From: Dysidea avara
Taxonomy: Eukaryota; Porifera; Demospongiae; Dictyoceratida; Dysideidae
Direction: 5' to 3'
Length of the DNA: 64,000 nt
NCBI RefSeq assembly: GCF_963678975.1
Contig: NC_089274.1
Span: forward strand, 26,971,053-27,035,052
The notes beneath the pieces were generated by a model. The model searched no databases and was not told where the DNA came from. It was given only the letters and a program-made list of their open reading frames with translations. Positions within the stretch are counted from its first letter, which is position 1; each line of letters starts with the position of its first letter. A program made the position numbers and the translations under genes. Shown here in pieces: positions 2,619-32,040 of the stretch.

Positions 2619-3506
2619 TTACACCACAGCAGCAGAAGTATCTTTATCATTGACACAAGACACATTTTCTAATGCAAAAAAAAATCTACACAAAATAAAA
2701 CATGGCTATATACTTACCAGCTAACAACACTTTCCTTGTGTCTACTGAACTGGATGTGTAGCAGTAGATGTGCTGACATTTCTTTGTGATACTTTTAATA
2801 GTGAACACTACCTCACTAGTGTACTCATCAATCACGTTGTATTGGTATTGATAGTTACAGGTATTTATTACACCAACAGATGGTCTAGGATAACCAGTGG
2901 CCCTGCAGCTACCAGTGACTGAAGTGTTTTCAACAACTGCTTCTGGAAGTGTCCACTCTATCACAGGTGGAACTATGTGTTTGGAAACATTGCCACTTTA
3001 TACACACTACATGCAAAATGTATGAAAGGGAGGTACAGTTATGTATTATGATACATAGAGTTGTATGTACATAGCTACGTAGTTTAGTTCAATAAATTTC
3101 AGTTCCCACCTTCCACTGTTATACAACACTGACGCTGGTCAACATCACACTGTTTACTACAACAGTAATCTCCAGCATCACTGAGGCTTGATATTGTCCA
3201 GCTGTAAGTGTGTGAACCTTGATGGATAAGATCAGCTTCACCAGCGGTATTGTAATGGGTGAAATTGTAAGTCGATCCTCCACATCCAAAATGAGGACAT
3301 AAAAACTGCACAGTTTCTCCAATGGATCTTTTGATTGGTTGTGCAGTCCCTCTTGACTTACAGATCCCTACTATACGTAAGATTATAATTGTAGAGAGAT
3401 ATATGTATTAGCCATGCACTGCAAAGTAATACATACCTGCACTAGCCTCTTGGAAGGAAGACAACACAATAGACATCACCAGTGACAGTATCAGCAGCCA
3501 GCACAT
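2619..3506 (-). CDS. Secreted two-Ig-domain protein, copy 1 (4 exons)
   Basis: Exons on the minus strand are 3437-3506, 3110-3367, 2718-2972 and 2619-2668; joined they give 210 residues and a TAA. Exon 1 encodes a hydrophobic signal peptide (MCWLLILSLVMSIVLSS). Exon 2 is an Ig-like domain with the hallmark LSDAGDYCC and an extra-cysteine tail (KQCDVDQRQCC). Exon 3 is a second Ig-like domain with SCRATGYPRPSV and later cysteines. All three introns fall after the first base of a codon, the symmetric phase typical of Ig-domain exons. The last intron is only 49 bp; reading through it meets a TAG, which supports splicing. There is no membrane segment or GPI-like tail, so secretion is inferred. It has several N-x-S/T sites. 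The ligand is unknown. It is clearly diverged from copies 2 and 3 but keeps every splice site. Confidence 0.82.
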
Positions 3507-3579
3507 TCTGATGATAAACTGTTCAGCTTGTTCAATTGATATTCAAATTACATGTCTTGCTCATCTGTTGTTCTGGTAA

Positions 3580-3585
3580 TTTATA
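3580..3585 (-). promoter_or_regulatory. Probable TATA box of Ig copy 1
   Basis: TATAAA on the minus strand lies about 75 bp before the ATG, inside the stretch GAGCTAGTATAAATT that is shared with both other copies. The position fits a core promoter; transcription is not shown. Confidence 0.5.
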
Positions 3586-3599
3586 CTAGCTCAGTATGT

Positions 3600-4250
3600 G
3601 TGATGTCATCATGGGGAACAATAGTTTGGATTTCCCTTCACGGCTTCAGTTTCAGTAATCGAATGCAAAAACTCTTATAAAGGAAATCACTTTTTATTTA
3701 ATGGTGGCTACAACGAGCTTAATTGTATCTCAGAGAGTGGGAGCATCATTTTTGCACTACAATAGATGGATACCATATACCATAAATCAGTCAAGTGCTT
3801 ATAGTCATATTAAATAAATTGTCATAAAGCTTTGAATTAGCAGAAATTGTGGAAAACAATCATGTTCTAAAACAAGTTTCTACCCATAATCCTTCCCAGT
3901 TTCTTTATGATCATAAGTAAAGCAACACTATAATAATGGAATACTACACCAACCAGTGAGAAAAAAATGTACACATATATTTATTTATAATTGCTAAGGC
4001 AACAATAGATTAGGGACAGAATATAAAAATTACCTTATATGTTAACAGAACATGCTGTGTATAATGATACACTGATGTATCAGTACAAGTGTAGCTATCT
4101 GGGTTGAAGAAAACCATGATAGTGGCCTACAATATGAATGTGTAACTGATCACAAGTAGTTCAAAGGATGCCTTGTTGGACCAGATGTAGAACATTATGG
4201 TTGCCACGTTTTTGGCTTGCTTTACCACTCAATGGTAGAGAGAAAAGACA
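3600..4250. other. Upstream flank of Ig copy 1
   Basis: No gene. The stretch is the diverged inverse of the sequence upstream of Ig copies 2 and 3 (around 13780-14560), with shared blocks such as TTTGGATTTCCCTTCAC and the run near 3990-4060. It may hold distal promoter sequence, which cannot be resolved by eye. Confidence 0.5.
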
Positions 4251-4394
4251 GGTGTGTGTGTGTGTGTGTGTGTGTGTGTGTGTGTGTGTGTGTGTGTGTG
4301 TGTGTGTGTGTGTGTGTGTGTGTGTGTGTGTGTGTGTGTGTGTGTGTGTGTGTGTGTGTGTGTGTGTGTGTGTGTGTGTGTGTGTGTGTGTGTG
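4251..4394. repeat. (GT)n microsatellite
   Basis: About 72 uninterrupted GT units. The matching places in the plus-strand copies (near 13550 and 30170) hold only a few CA units, so the expansion is specific to this copy. Open frames of alternating V/C or H/T here are artefacts. Confidence 0.98.
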
Positions 4395-28821: not shown

Positions 28822-28828
28822 CCTTAAG

Positions 28829-31076
28829 TAAATCATAATAGTTTTGTACTAACACCATATGAAATTGCGCTGACATGTAAAGCTTGTCCCAAAACCGTTT
28901 ACATCACTTATGTAATATATTATGTCAAGCCAAAAACCATACAGGTACTATCAAAACAAAGCAATCCCTGTGAGTTCACTATAAGAAATGAAATGGGCCA
29001 TGAATTTCTCTACAAAATGTCTTTTATTTATTTGTTAAGGCTTTACAGCACAAGTATACTGAAGGTTTGTAGGATACCTGGTCCTACAGCCTGTTTATAA
29101 AGATGTTGTGCTATGTAAGTATGTGTCACTTTTTAAGATCAAAGTGTGAAAGATTTAAATACTGTACATCATTCTCTTATAGGGTTAAATTCACAACATT
29201 TAACTATGATTTGTTAGTAACCATAAAAGTACATGAACTATAAATCAGTTAGCTACATCTGAGTCATACCATTTGGGAAATGTATTGCTACATTGGCATG
29301 ATATAGCAACTACAGTTTTGAATACGAACATTGATCATATCCTAACTATGTGGTACCTGCCACACACATATGAGTAAAGTAAGTCCCAAACATAAACATA
29401 CATTTACTACCACTACCTTGTATACTACAAAATGGGTGGTATAATAATATTCAGGTGACACATGACCTGTTCATGGTATCATGTTGAAAATACCTGCTGA
29501 GAAAGGTCCACCCTAGCTAGTGGGTATTGCATGAATACAGGTACTTTAACCTGCTGTGTTTATTTAACTAATTGATAATTAGAGAGTGGCATGAGTGTTA
29601 AGAATAAGGTGGGAGATAATGTTTTGAAAAAAATGTTGTGTGTTAGTTCTTGTTGCAATGTGATGGCTTTGTCATGTCAGGTACTTATTGGTCATGTGCA
29701 TGGACTGGTATTGTTTGTTTACATTACTTGAGTGAATCCAGTTAGTATTCAGCAACTGCATGGGCATGCCACCTATAGACATGACCAATAAGTATTTTAC
29801 AGTGGAATCTTTCGATGGTCACCTGCTTAGAAAGGCCATATCTAAAATTGGCCAACTTTAAAGTTCAGTTTTGGGAAGACAATGTGCATTGCGGTTACAT
29901 ACTTATAAATCAATATTTGCAGTTAAAGTTATAATTAGTAGTTAAAAGTTGAAATCTGCACTGTATAATGGTTGTGTTGTAAGGATCTTGCTGTATATAG
30001 TGATGAATTACGTAGTTCTGTGGCCAAACACCATTGTGAAATTATCAATTAATACCACGAATACTTGGCATTGCAGATGTATCTTATTTGCACCACTCAG
30101 CTATAATGTATTCCTTCAGTTTGTAACAAATCAAAAGCATACACACTCCCACTAGCTATAGCTGATACACACACCATGTGTACCTGTACCACTTGAGTGG
30201 TCAAGCAGGTCATTACCACACCAGATAGCTAAAGGTGAAGTTTGATAGTTGTGTACAATGAATATGTCCTGTTAACATATAAGGTAATTTTTATATCCTG
30301 TCCCTAATCCAATCACTATCAATTACCAGAGACCACATCTTCTTTGCTACATGATACTTGATATGAGGTGATGCAAGTTTCTTGGAAGGAGCCCTCCAAG
30401 CTCATTCAAAATTTAGATGCACACTTCCAAGTAGAAGCAAATGTATATGTGACCAGATTTTACAAAACCAGGCTTCCACACACATCCAATTCCTTGACTT
30501 AAACCAACTGTAAATTGACCACTTGGTATGGGCAAAATTTGAAAGTGATAGCATACTCCTACATTGAGTTATGGTTGTTTAAAGTCATAAATCTGGATGT
30601 GTGTGGAAGCCTGACTTTGTCAAATTCAGTCACATATTCTGTAAATTTCCTTTTATTATAACATTAGTGCCAGGTATATATAGGCTATGTATTGTAAATG
30701 CATGTGAACAGTATAAATAGTATCTCACTGGTGGTGAAGTGCTCCATGATTATAGTGTTGATGGTCATAAAGAAACTGGGAAAGATTATGGGTAGAAGCT
30801 TATTTTCAGTATTGTAGATCATGATAATTTCTACTAATTCAAAGCTATATCCCACTTTATGACTATCTTTTCAATATGGCTATAATGGTATACAATATCC
30901 ATATAGTGCAAAGATGATCCTCCCACTCACTGAGATACAATTAAGCTCATTGTACCCACCATTAAGTAGTACTAATTTAAATGTAATTTCCTTTGTCATT
31001 CGATTACTGAAACTGAAGCTGTGGAGGGAAATCCAAACTATTGCTCCCCATGATGACATCACATGTGCAGAGCTAG
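28829..31076. other. Region upstream of Ig copy 3
   Basis: Direct counterpart of 12187-14566, with small indels. No gene is recognised. The hairpin MITE is listed separately. Confidence 0.5.
30445..30637. mobile_element. Hairpin MITE upstream of Ig copy 3
   Basis: Counterpart of 13924-14117 with the same inverted arms; one arm has CTGACTTTGTC where the other copy has CTGGCTTTGTC. Confidence 0.7.
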
Positions 31077-31082
31077 TATAAA
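31077..31082 (+). promoter_or_regulatory. Probable TATA box of Ig copy 3
   Basis: Same TATAAA context and distance to ATG as copy 2. Confidence 0.5.
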
Positions 31083-31174
31083 TTGCCAGAACAGCAGATG
31101 AGCAAGACATGTAATTTGAATATCAATTGATCAAGCAAGTTTTACAGGTTTGAATAAAACAGTTTATCATCAGG

Positions 31175-32040
31175 ATGTGCTGGCTGCTGATAATGTCACT
31201 GGTGATGGCTATTGTGTTATCGTCCTTCCCAGAGGCTAGTGGAGGTTAGTATTGCTTTGTAGTGCATGGCTAATACATCTCTCTCTCTCTAATTTTCATC
31301 TTACAGTAGGGATCTGTAAGTCAAGAGGGACTGCACGACCAATTAAAAAATCCATTGGAGAAACCGTCCGATTTTTATGTCATGCTAATTTTCAATGTGA
31401 GGGATCGACTTACAATTTCACCCATTACAACCATACCACTGGTGAAGCTGATCTAACACATCAAGGTTCACACACTTACAGTTGGACAATAACAAGCCTC
31501 AGTGATGCTGGAGATTACTGTTGTAGTAAACAATGTGATGTTGACCAACGTCAGTGCTGTACAACAGTGGAAGGTAGGAATTGAACTAAAGTGTTTGCAG
31601 CTAGCTAGGTGCAACTCTATGTAACATAATGCATAACCTTTCATCCATTGTATACAAAGTGGGTATGATTTCAATGTTTCCACATGATAGTTCCACCTGT
31701 GATAGAGTGGACACTTCCAGAAGCAGTTGTTGCTAACACTTCAGTCACTGGTAGCTGTAGGGCCACTGGTTATCCTAGACCATCTGTTAGTGTGATGAAT
31801 ACCTGTGACTATCAATACCAATACAATGTGATTGATGAGTACACTAATGAGGTAGTGTTCACTATTAAAAGTGTCACAAAGAAATGTCAACACATCTACT
31901 GCTACACATCCAGTTCAGTAGACACAAGGAAAGTGTTGTTAGCTGGTGAGTATATGGCCATGAATGTTTTGTGTACATTTATTTTTGGATTAGAAAATGT
32001 GTCTTGTGTCAATGATAAAGATACTGCTGCTGTGGTGTAA
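31175..32040 (+). CDS. Secreted two-Ig-domain protein, copy 3 (4 exons)
   Basis: Exons 31175-31244, 31310-31573, 31691-31945 and 31994-32040, each exactly 16510 bp downstream of its partner in copy 2. The 211-residue product differs from copy 2 at three residues that I can see: Thr to Ala in the signal peptide, His to Arg in the cysteine-rich end of Ig domain 1 (DQRQCC), and Ser to Asn in Ig domain 2 (EYTNEV). Three silent changes were also noted. Signal peptide, both Ig domains, the LSDAGDYCC hallmark, all phase-1 splice sites, TATA box and poly(A) signal are intact, so both copies could be expressed. The two proteins are probably near-redundant and secreted. Confidence 0.86.

Follow-up and report, generated by a model that had tools for sequence, protein, structure and literature searches.

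Candidate secreted derivatives of a two-immunoglobulin-domain family in the sponge Dysidea avara

We analysed a 64,000-nt stretch of the genome of the sponge Dysidea avara (NC_089274.1, positions 26,971,053 to 27,035,052; hereafter the window) in which, judged from sequence, three real neighbouring genes, c1, c2 and c3, encode small proteins with two immunoglobulin (Ig) domains, D1 and D2. The reading that we favour, and hold to be rather probable, is that c1-c3 encode functional small secreted proteins derived from a lineage-specific two-Ig cell-surface family, many members of which carry a C-terminal tail resembling a glycosylphosphatidylinositol (GPI) anchor signal. The products of c1-c3 would then be released, soluble forms.

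Gene structure and constraint in c1-c3

The exon models of c1-c3 were rebuilt from the sequence, and all introns are GT-AG and in phase 1. In each copy, a signal-peptide exon of 70 nt (the signal peptide being called by eye) is followed by an Ig1 exon of 258 or 264 nt, an Ig2 exon of 255 nt and a tail exon of 50 or 47 nt, which gives a tail of 15-16 residues. An earlier sequence-only reading of this DNA had described a signal-peptide-like start, two phase-1 Ig exons, a tail of this length and a 48-49 nt terminal intron, and the rebuilt models agree with it in each of these points. The models are as follows, with the TATAAAT motifs read by eye.

2619..3506, minus strand: gene c1, 210 aa, exons 3506-3437 (signal peptide), 3367-3110 (Ig1), 2972-2718 (Ig2) and 2668-2619 (tail, ENVSCVNDKDTSAAVV), introns of 69, 137 and 49 nt
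14665..15530, plus strand: gene c2, 211 aa, exons 14665-14734, 14800-15063, 15181-15435 and 15484-15530 (tail, ENVSCVNDKDTAAVV), introns of 65, 117 and 48 nt
31175..32040, plus strand: gene c3, 211 aa, exons 31175-31244, 31310-31573, 31691-31945 and 31994-32040, introns of 65, 117 and 48 nt
2669..2717, minus strand: terminal micro-intron of c1, 49 nt, with an in-frame TAG on retention
15436..15483, plus strand: terminal micro-intron of c2, 48 nt, open on retention, at chance level
31946..31993, plus strand: terminal micro-intron of c3, 48 nt
3585-3579: TATAAAT, 79 nt 5' of the c1 ATG
14567..14573, plus strand: TATAAAT, 98 nt 5' of the c2 ATG
31077-31083: TATAAAT, 5' of the c3 ATG

The coding sequences of c2 and c3 differ by 6 nt and those of c1 and c2 by 43 nt. 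Apart from c1-c3, a tblastn search of the window gave no other match that convinced as a family member, and scans of the window with Rfam (gathering threshold) and for tRNAs were empty.

Between c1 and c2, substitutions were counted at 5 of 70 positions in exon 1, 23 of 258 in exon 2 and 10 of 255 in exon 3, while exon 4 has none in 47 positions and differs by one in-frame 3-nt indel. Outside the exons, the same two copies differ at 11/65, 29/117 and 8/48 positions of the three introns (48/230 pooled) and at 71/292 positions of the 3' flank. At the pooled intron rate, the probability of an unchanged exon 4 is 1.7e-5. Since the tail exon is free of substitutions against this intron background, both the micro-intron and the tail exon look real.

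The ratio of nonsynonymous to synonymous substitution rates (dN/dS) was 0.35 for c1-c2 (dN 0.052, dS 0.147), 0.33 for c1-c3; the c2-c3 value, 0.28, rests on 6 changes only. For c1 against c2 and c3, the ratio lies at 0.24-0.26 in D1 and 0.33-0.39 in D2; the signal peptide alone gives 1.29 for c1-c2, from 5 changes. A dN/dS comparison of the paralogues had been suggested earlier, and for the c1-c3 pairs it returns no sign of diversification: on these ratios, substitution among the three copies is purifying overall, not diversifying.

The wider family and its C-terminal tails

The genome search covered a 550.8-Mb assembly, in which 15 long contigs hold 99.8% of the bases and the window is C3:26971053-27035052. 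A fourth close copy, c4, lies at C3:27074.3-27075.6 kb, about 39 kb outside the window, and a decayed copy with stops lies at C3:26662.9-26663.8 kb, about 0.3 Mb off on the side opposite c4. With D1 and D2 of c2 as query and E allowed up to 10, at least 51 exon matches were obtained; a distant member as query gave at least 56 matches at E up to 0.001, with c1-c4 recovered at 1e-5 to 8e-4. The distant relatives are clustered on C8, C5 and C3, and matches with stops are present on C8 too. What had been taken for a three-copy family is thus considerably wider. Profiles aligned 39 D1 and 30 D2 stretches across 288 kb of family-locus DNA, from which 25 D1-D2 copies, c1-c4 included, were paired on three chromosomes, along with two single-D1 genes. 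In the protein tree c1-c4 form one group (support 97/95).

The DNA downstream of D2 (1.4-2.8 kb) was scanned for GPI-like tails, defined as a stop-terminated frame with a stretch rich in Ser, Thr, Pro or Asn and a terminal hydrophobic segment. Such a tail was present in 18 of the 27 stretches 3' of D2; one of these (35.0669) shows a neighbour's tail, leaving 17 genes, c4 among them. As controls, the rule accepted 0 of 27 antisense stretches and 8 of 300 random 2350-nt stretches from C3:26.961-27.045 Mb. By the same home-made rule, c1-c3 have no GPI-like tail (0/3), and none was found over 8 kb downstream of them (0/3). The earlier description of these genes as secreted fits c1-c3, but the secreted state looks derived, as 17 of the 27 scanned copies carry a GPI-signal-like tail.

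The C-terminal end of c4 exon 4 reads TRSSGNTITSMMYMILMMPLILLLVL, followed by the stop, and the decayed copy holds DNA homologous to this tail exon (77% over 184 nt). Comparison of the c1-c3 tail exon with that of c4 gave no significant match beyond the first ten bases (Smith-Waterman score 21, a value that 59 of 200 shuffles attained). The short tail was not found again in the other family loci examined. Since the family cysteines are all present in c1-c3 and the GPI-signal-like C-terminus is absent from all three, we file these genes as putative derived relatives, not GPI-anchored members, of the two-Ig family. The distribution of tails, GPI-like in the family and with anchor-type DNA shared by c4 and the decayed copy, suggests that the anchor was most likely lost through replacement of the last exon, once, before c1-c3 separated. 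On this view the family descends from a GPI-anchored protein, and a terminal exon of 15-16 residues behind a 48-49 nt intron would have taken the place of the anchor exon in the forerunner of c1-c3, with the effect that the product would be released instead of tethered.

Three complete members, at C8:35030257, 35041672 and 35192753 in the main C8 cluster, have a signal-peptide-like start, D1, D2, a stalk and a hydrophobic tail in one open frame with no splicing assumed; these single-exon genes are possibly retrocopies. Two adjoining single-D1 relatives, at C5:25417-25424 kb, have the YCC...QCC cysteine pattern and a long stalk of Ser/Thr, and carry a membrane span with basic residues in the cytoplasmic tail after it.

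Ig domains, structural relatives and cysteines

By profile similarity, c1-c3 are placed in the immunoglobulin superfamily. The Pfam Ig_3 model (cut-off 30 bits) scored 31.0 bits in c2 and 31.3 in c3; the proposed profile check of the Ig exons thus came out over the cut-off in these two copies but under it in c1 (27.1 bits). Pfam I-set, which scored best on Ig1, stayed under its cut-off in all three. c4 was under the cut-off as well, and of three distant members tried, two had no Ig match while the third scored as Ig below the cut-off. Since none of these three exceeds a Pfam Ig cut-off, their assignment as Ig proteins depends on their homology to c1-c4. Surveys based on Pfam may accordingly miss much of the family, these distant members having been found via c1-c3.

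The nearest solved sequences are adhesion proteins. A phmmer search against the PDB gave NEGR1 (8.3e-8), Robo1 (3.3e-5), DIP-gamma (1.4e-4), NCAM2 (3.9e-4) and DSCAM (9e-4), and a 7-row family profile gave contactin-4 (3e-12), DSCAM (5e-12) and NEGR1 (6e-11), with immune Ig proteins (CD79b, PD-L2, shark VNARs) ranking lower at 5e-5 and weaker. With the adhesion group (contactin-4, DSCAM, NEGR1/IgLON, NCAM2, Robo, DIP) c1-c3 share a DxGxYxC motif in D1 and GxPxP in D2. Unlike these proteins, of which the IgLONs and contactins are GPI-anchored, c1-c3 have two Ig domains only, extra cysteines in both and no anchor. A further difference lies in the core Trp of strand C, a usual but not absolute trait of the superfamily, which in D1 is replaced by Phe (F60) in 7/7 aligned family rows; no Trp stands at the D2 position either (7/7).

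Other secreted or Ig-bearing systems resemble c1-c3 in part. FREPs and VCBPs are secreted invertebrate multigene families with one or two Ig domains, features that they share with c1-c3; unlike them, c1-c3 lack the hallmark fibrinogen or chitin-binding domain, Pfam having returned Ig families only. Sponges have surface proteins with Ig domains, among them Ig-TIR receptors and the Geodia Ig adhesion molecules (PMC6208332, PMC11999971). The Ig-TIR receptors carry Ig domains as c1-c3 do and have an intracellular TIR domain, whereas c1-c3 (210-211 aa) end after the tail, with no TIR or kinase domain and no membrane span that would place them among the sponge Ig-TIR or Ig-kinase receptors. No relative was confirmed among 121 and 70 pattern matches in prokaryote and viral collections, respectively. 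For D. avara itself, 637 I-set and 564 V-set domains have been counted (PMC12909245, section 3.2 and Table 1); this section and table attest to a large Ig inventory and give domain counts only, with no two-Ig GPI-anchored or secreted family described there. An earlier printed account of such a family in sponges was not found in searches of an open-licence library.

The cysteine-rich end of D1 had been singled out as unusual. Most of its pattern proved common to the family as sampled; the subfamily-specific positions are C94 and C107 alone, found in the same 7 of 27 rows. The conserved D1 cysteines are C26 (24/27 rows), C47 (26/27), C53 (25/27), C95 (25/27), C99 (27/27) and C106 (26/27); in D2 they are C134 and C150 (25/25 each) and C177 and C182 (23/25 each, lost jointly in the same two rows). 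All ten are present in c1-c3. C47 and C95 in D1 and C134 and C182 in D2 make up the B- and F-strand pairs, with strands assigned by motif. The only row without C47 lacks C95 too, and another lacks C95 and C106 and keeps C47; the rows are related by descent, and such co-occurrences are not independent events. We infer disulphides C47-C95, C94-C107 and C134-C182, and C150-C177 is a probable fourth. Of the 14 cysteines in the c2 protein, C2 belongs to the signal peptide and one of the other 13 lies in the tail. Signal-peptide cleavage beyond C2 would leave these 13 in the mature protein, an odd number that would permit a disulphide-linked dimer.

Apart from this family, a genome search with Pfam Ig_3 gave 3404 first-look candidates, of which 150 were scored and 150/150 exceeded the cut-off. 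By hand count, 82 of these 150 fall in C5:5.77-9.39 Mb and C5:38.93-41.44 Mb, a very large expansion of Ig genes; other sites are C1:18.9-19.0, C14:6.8 and C7:0.78-0.87 Mb.

Locus history and alternative explanations

Self-blastn and boundary sequences delimit the following units in the window.

8557..17538, plus strand: tandem unit U1, holding c2
17571..34048, plus strand: tandem unit U2, holding c3, matching U1 in pieces at 88-96% identity
2283..5490, minus strand: more diverged, inverted copy of part of this unit, holding c1, matching 12479-15825 and 29123-32336 in pieces at 69-80% identity
19050-25501 and 26195-28821: extra DNA in U2 with no U1 counterpart
20274-23201 and 24605-25471, plus strand, within 19050..25501: frames of a long interspersed nuclear element (LINE), the first with endonuclease and reverse transcriptase, the second with part of a reverse transcriptase

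Local duplication, as proposed earlier, is borne out by this layout. The c2/c3 duplication is head-to-tail with a unit of about 9 kb, and the longest U1/U2 match is 95.9% identical over 3.9 kb. A motif of about 30 nt, AAGCTTACCTTGAAGGATATCATCACCTGA, occurs twice at the U1/U2 junction and also, minus its last base, at the start of U1; the outer flanks of the two units have no significant match with each other.

Synonymous distances differ strongly between the two domains when c4 is compared with the window copies. For D1 and D2, respectively, dS was 0.607 and 0.084 in c1-c4 and 0.734 and 0.136 in c2-c4, and differences at fourfold sites were 6/25 versus 0/34 (p 0.004) and 7/21 versus 1/34 (p 0.003). 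Because exon 3 has far fewer synonymous differences than exon 2 in c4 versus c1-c3, this result suggests that exon 3 was homogenised by exon-limited gene conversion while exon 2 diverged.

As to what soluble forms would do, we think a ligand, decoy or opsonin-like role most likely, because the domain set and the selection on it have been kept while the anchor is gone. In the least certain steps of the proposal, soluble D1-D2 would serve in trans as a ligand, decoy or opsonin-like binder within the adhesion or recognition system to which the anchored paralogues belong; D1 would provide the binding face and be the more variable domain, and D2 would be a conserved spacer. The mechanism is supported as far as secretion; for binding, immunity and allorecognition it is conjectural. 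Several observations weigh against the favoured reading. The GPI rule is home-made from hydropathy and composition and was written after the tails had been viewed; some of the tails it accepts could be short membrane spans. Nine of the 27 stretches lack a GPI-like tail, namely those of c1-c3, that of the decayed copy and five on C8 (35.013, 35.019, 35.062, 35.184 and 35.192), and 35.0669 shows its neighbour's tail only; C8 35.192 has a stalk and a hydrophobic tail by eye, yet fails the rule. In the two single-D1 relatives (C5:25.42 Mb) the membrane span is a true one and the cytoplasmic tail is basic, and the ancestral anchor type is for that reason not certain. The fourfold test that separates the domains in comparisons with c4 is not significant for c1-c2, c1-c3 or c2-c3 (p 0.57, 0.31, 0.47), and the protein tree pairs c1 with c4 (99/86), although both the shared tail and the synonymous distances speak for another grouping. 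This conflict may be due to gene conversion.

The rival to which we give most room, while still thinking it unlikely, goes back to the sequence-only reading: a recognition, immune-type or allorecognition cluster in which duplication diversifies genes for the binding of microbes or non-self. In its favour are the clusters of many genes, their tandem duplication, the decayed copies and the exon-limited homogenisation, and also the report that Dysidea and Aplysina alter the expression of Ig-domain genes in response to microbial patterns (PMC6208332). A precedent is the Botryllus fuhc locus, where a secreted gene, fuhc-sec, accompanies a membrane-bound gene with Ig domains, fuhc-tm, and polymorphisms correlate with fusion outcome (PMC3691228). 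That system differs in being from a chordate, in having three Ig domains in the membrane gene and in being highly polymorphic; the pair is, by analogy, a precedent for secreted and membrane genes as neighbours and no evidence that the two systems are related. Against diversification for binding stand the dN/dS values below 1 in both Ig domains for c1 against c2 and c3, and the adhesion proteins at the top of the solved-structure ranking, above the immune Ig proteins. A bolder reading, which we regard as improbable, is that a humoral arm arose independently in an early-branching animal: exon replacement would have freed soluble D1-D2 from a clustered, GPI-anchored two-Ig recognition family, and these forms, with a lineage-specific C94-C107 disulphide in the binding domain and a tail cysteine for dimerisation, would bind the targets of the anchored ones. 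If the sponge reading is right, c1-c3 offer a testable case, in an early-branching animal, of anchored Ig recognition or adhesion proteins yielding soluble forms by a last-exon swap. Should transcripts and binding partners come to light, the pairing of anchored with soluble forms would give a concrete entry point into sponge self/non-self recognition.

The remaining rivals concern c1-c3 themselves, and we rate all of them lower still. That c2 and c3 represent a single gene, whose two haplotypes the assembler mistakenly set in tandem, is quite unlikely: they differ by 0-4% depending on the segment, a divergence that a diverse sponge population could show, but the window has no Ns, the breakpoints are definite, the junction bears the short repeated motif, the outer flanks lack a significant match and U2 alone holds about 6.5 kb of LINE-bearing DNA. 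On the side of this rival, a published D. avara assembly reports 61 unplaced scaffolds as alternative haplotypes (PMC12909245). We give equally little credit to decay, in which c1-c3 would have lost their anchor by accident and the tail would be meaningless. The decayed relative 0.3 Mb off and the matches with stops on C8 make this conceivable, but frames and splice sites are intact in 3/3 copies, the c1-c3 pairs have dN/dS of 0.28-0.35, and the tail exon has no substitutions where the 3' flank has changed by 24%. Least probable of all is a second isoform beside the secreted one, through intron retention or a distal anchor exon. As had been noted, c2 and c3 do stay in frame when the last intron is retained, whereas c1 runs into a TAG. 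However, a shuffled 48-nt intron of equal composition stays open in about 21% of cases (about 7% if a length divisible by three is counted), and the intron at the same place in c4 is 291 nt long with stops inside; for a distal anchor exon, the scan of 8 kb downstream of each gene with the home-made rule gave no candidate. The open intron is weak evidence. Since the retained frame is at chance level and the c4 intron contains stops, we do not accept the two isoforms that had been predicted for c2 and c3.

Several further elements were seen in the window. A large inverted repeat (26742-27471 versus 28108-28828, 90% identical) lies in the DNA without a U1 counterpart and is probably another inserted element. 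An 11-copy 24-bp minisatellite (2029-2295) lies 3' of c1 and a (GT)71 run (4252-4394) lies 5' of it. Farther along are a second LINE with endonuclease/reverse transcriptase (41597-44197, minus strand), a hAT-type transposase dimerisation region (59065-60777, minus strand) and a TRAF-like gene (48021-49389, plus strand), whose RING, zf-TRAF and MATH parts lie close together in three different frames and which may be a broken copy. Three stretches, at 1223-1387 (plus strand), 55950-56114 (minus strand) and 34308-34562 (minus strand), are coding ends or fragments that are similar to one another and contain PNIKKWLETRPK; they seem to resemble the C-terminus of glutathione S-transferase.

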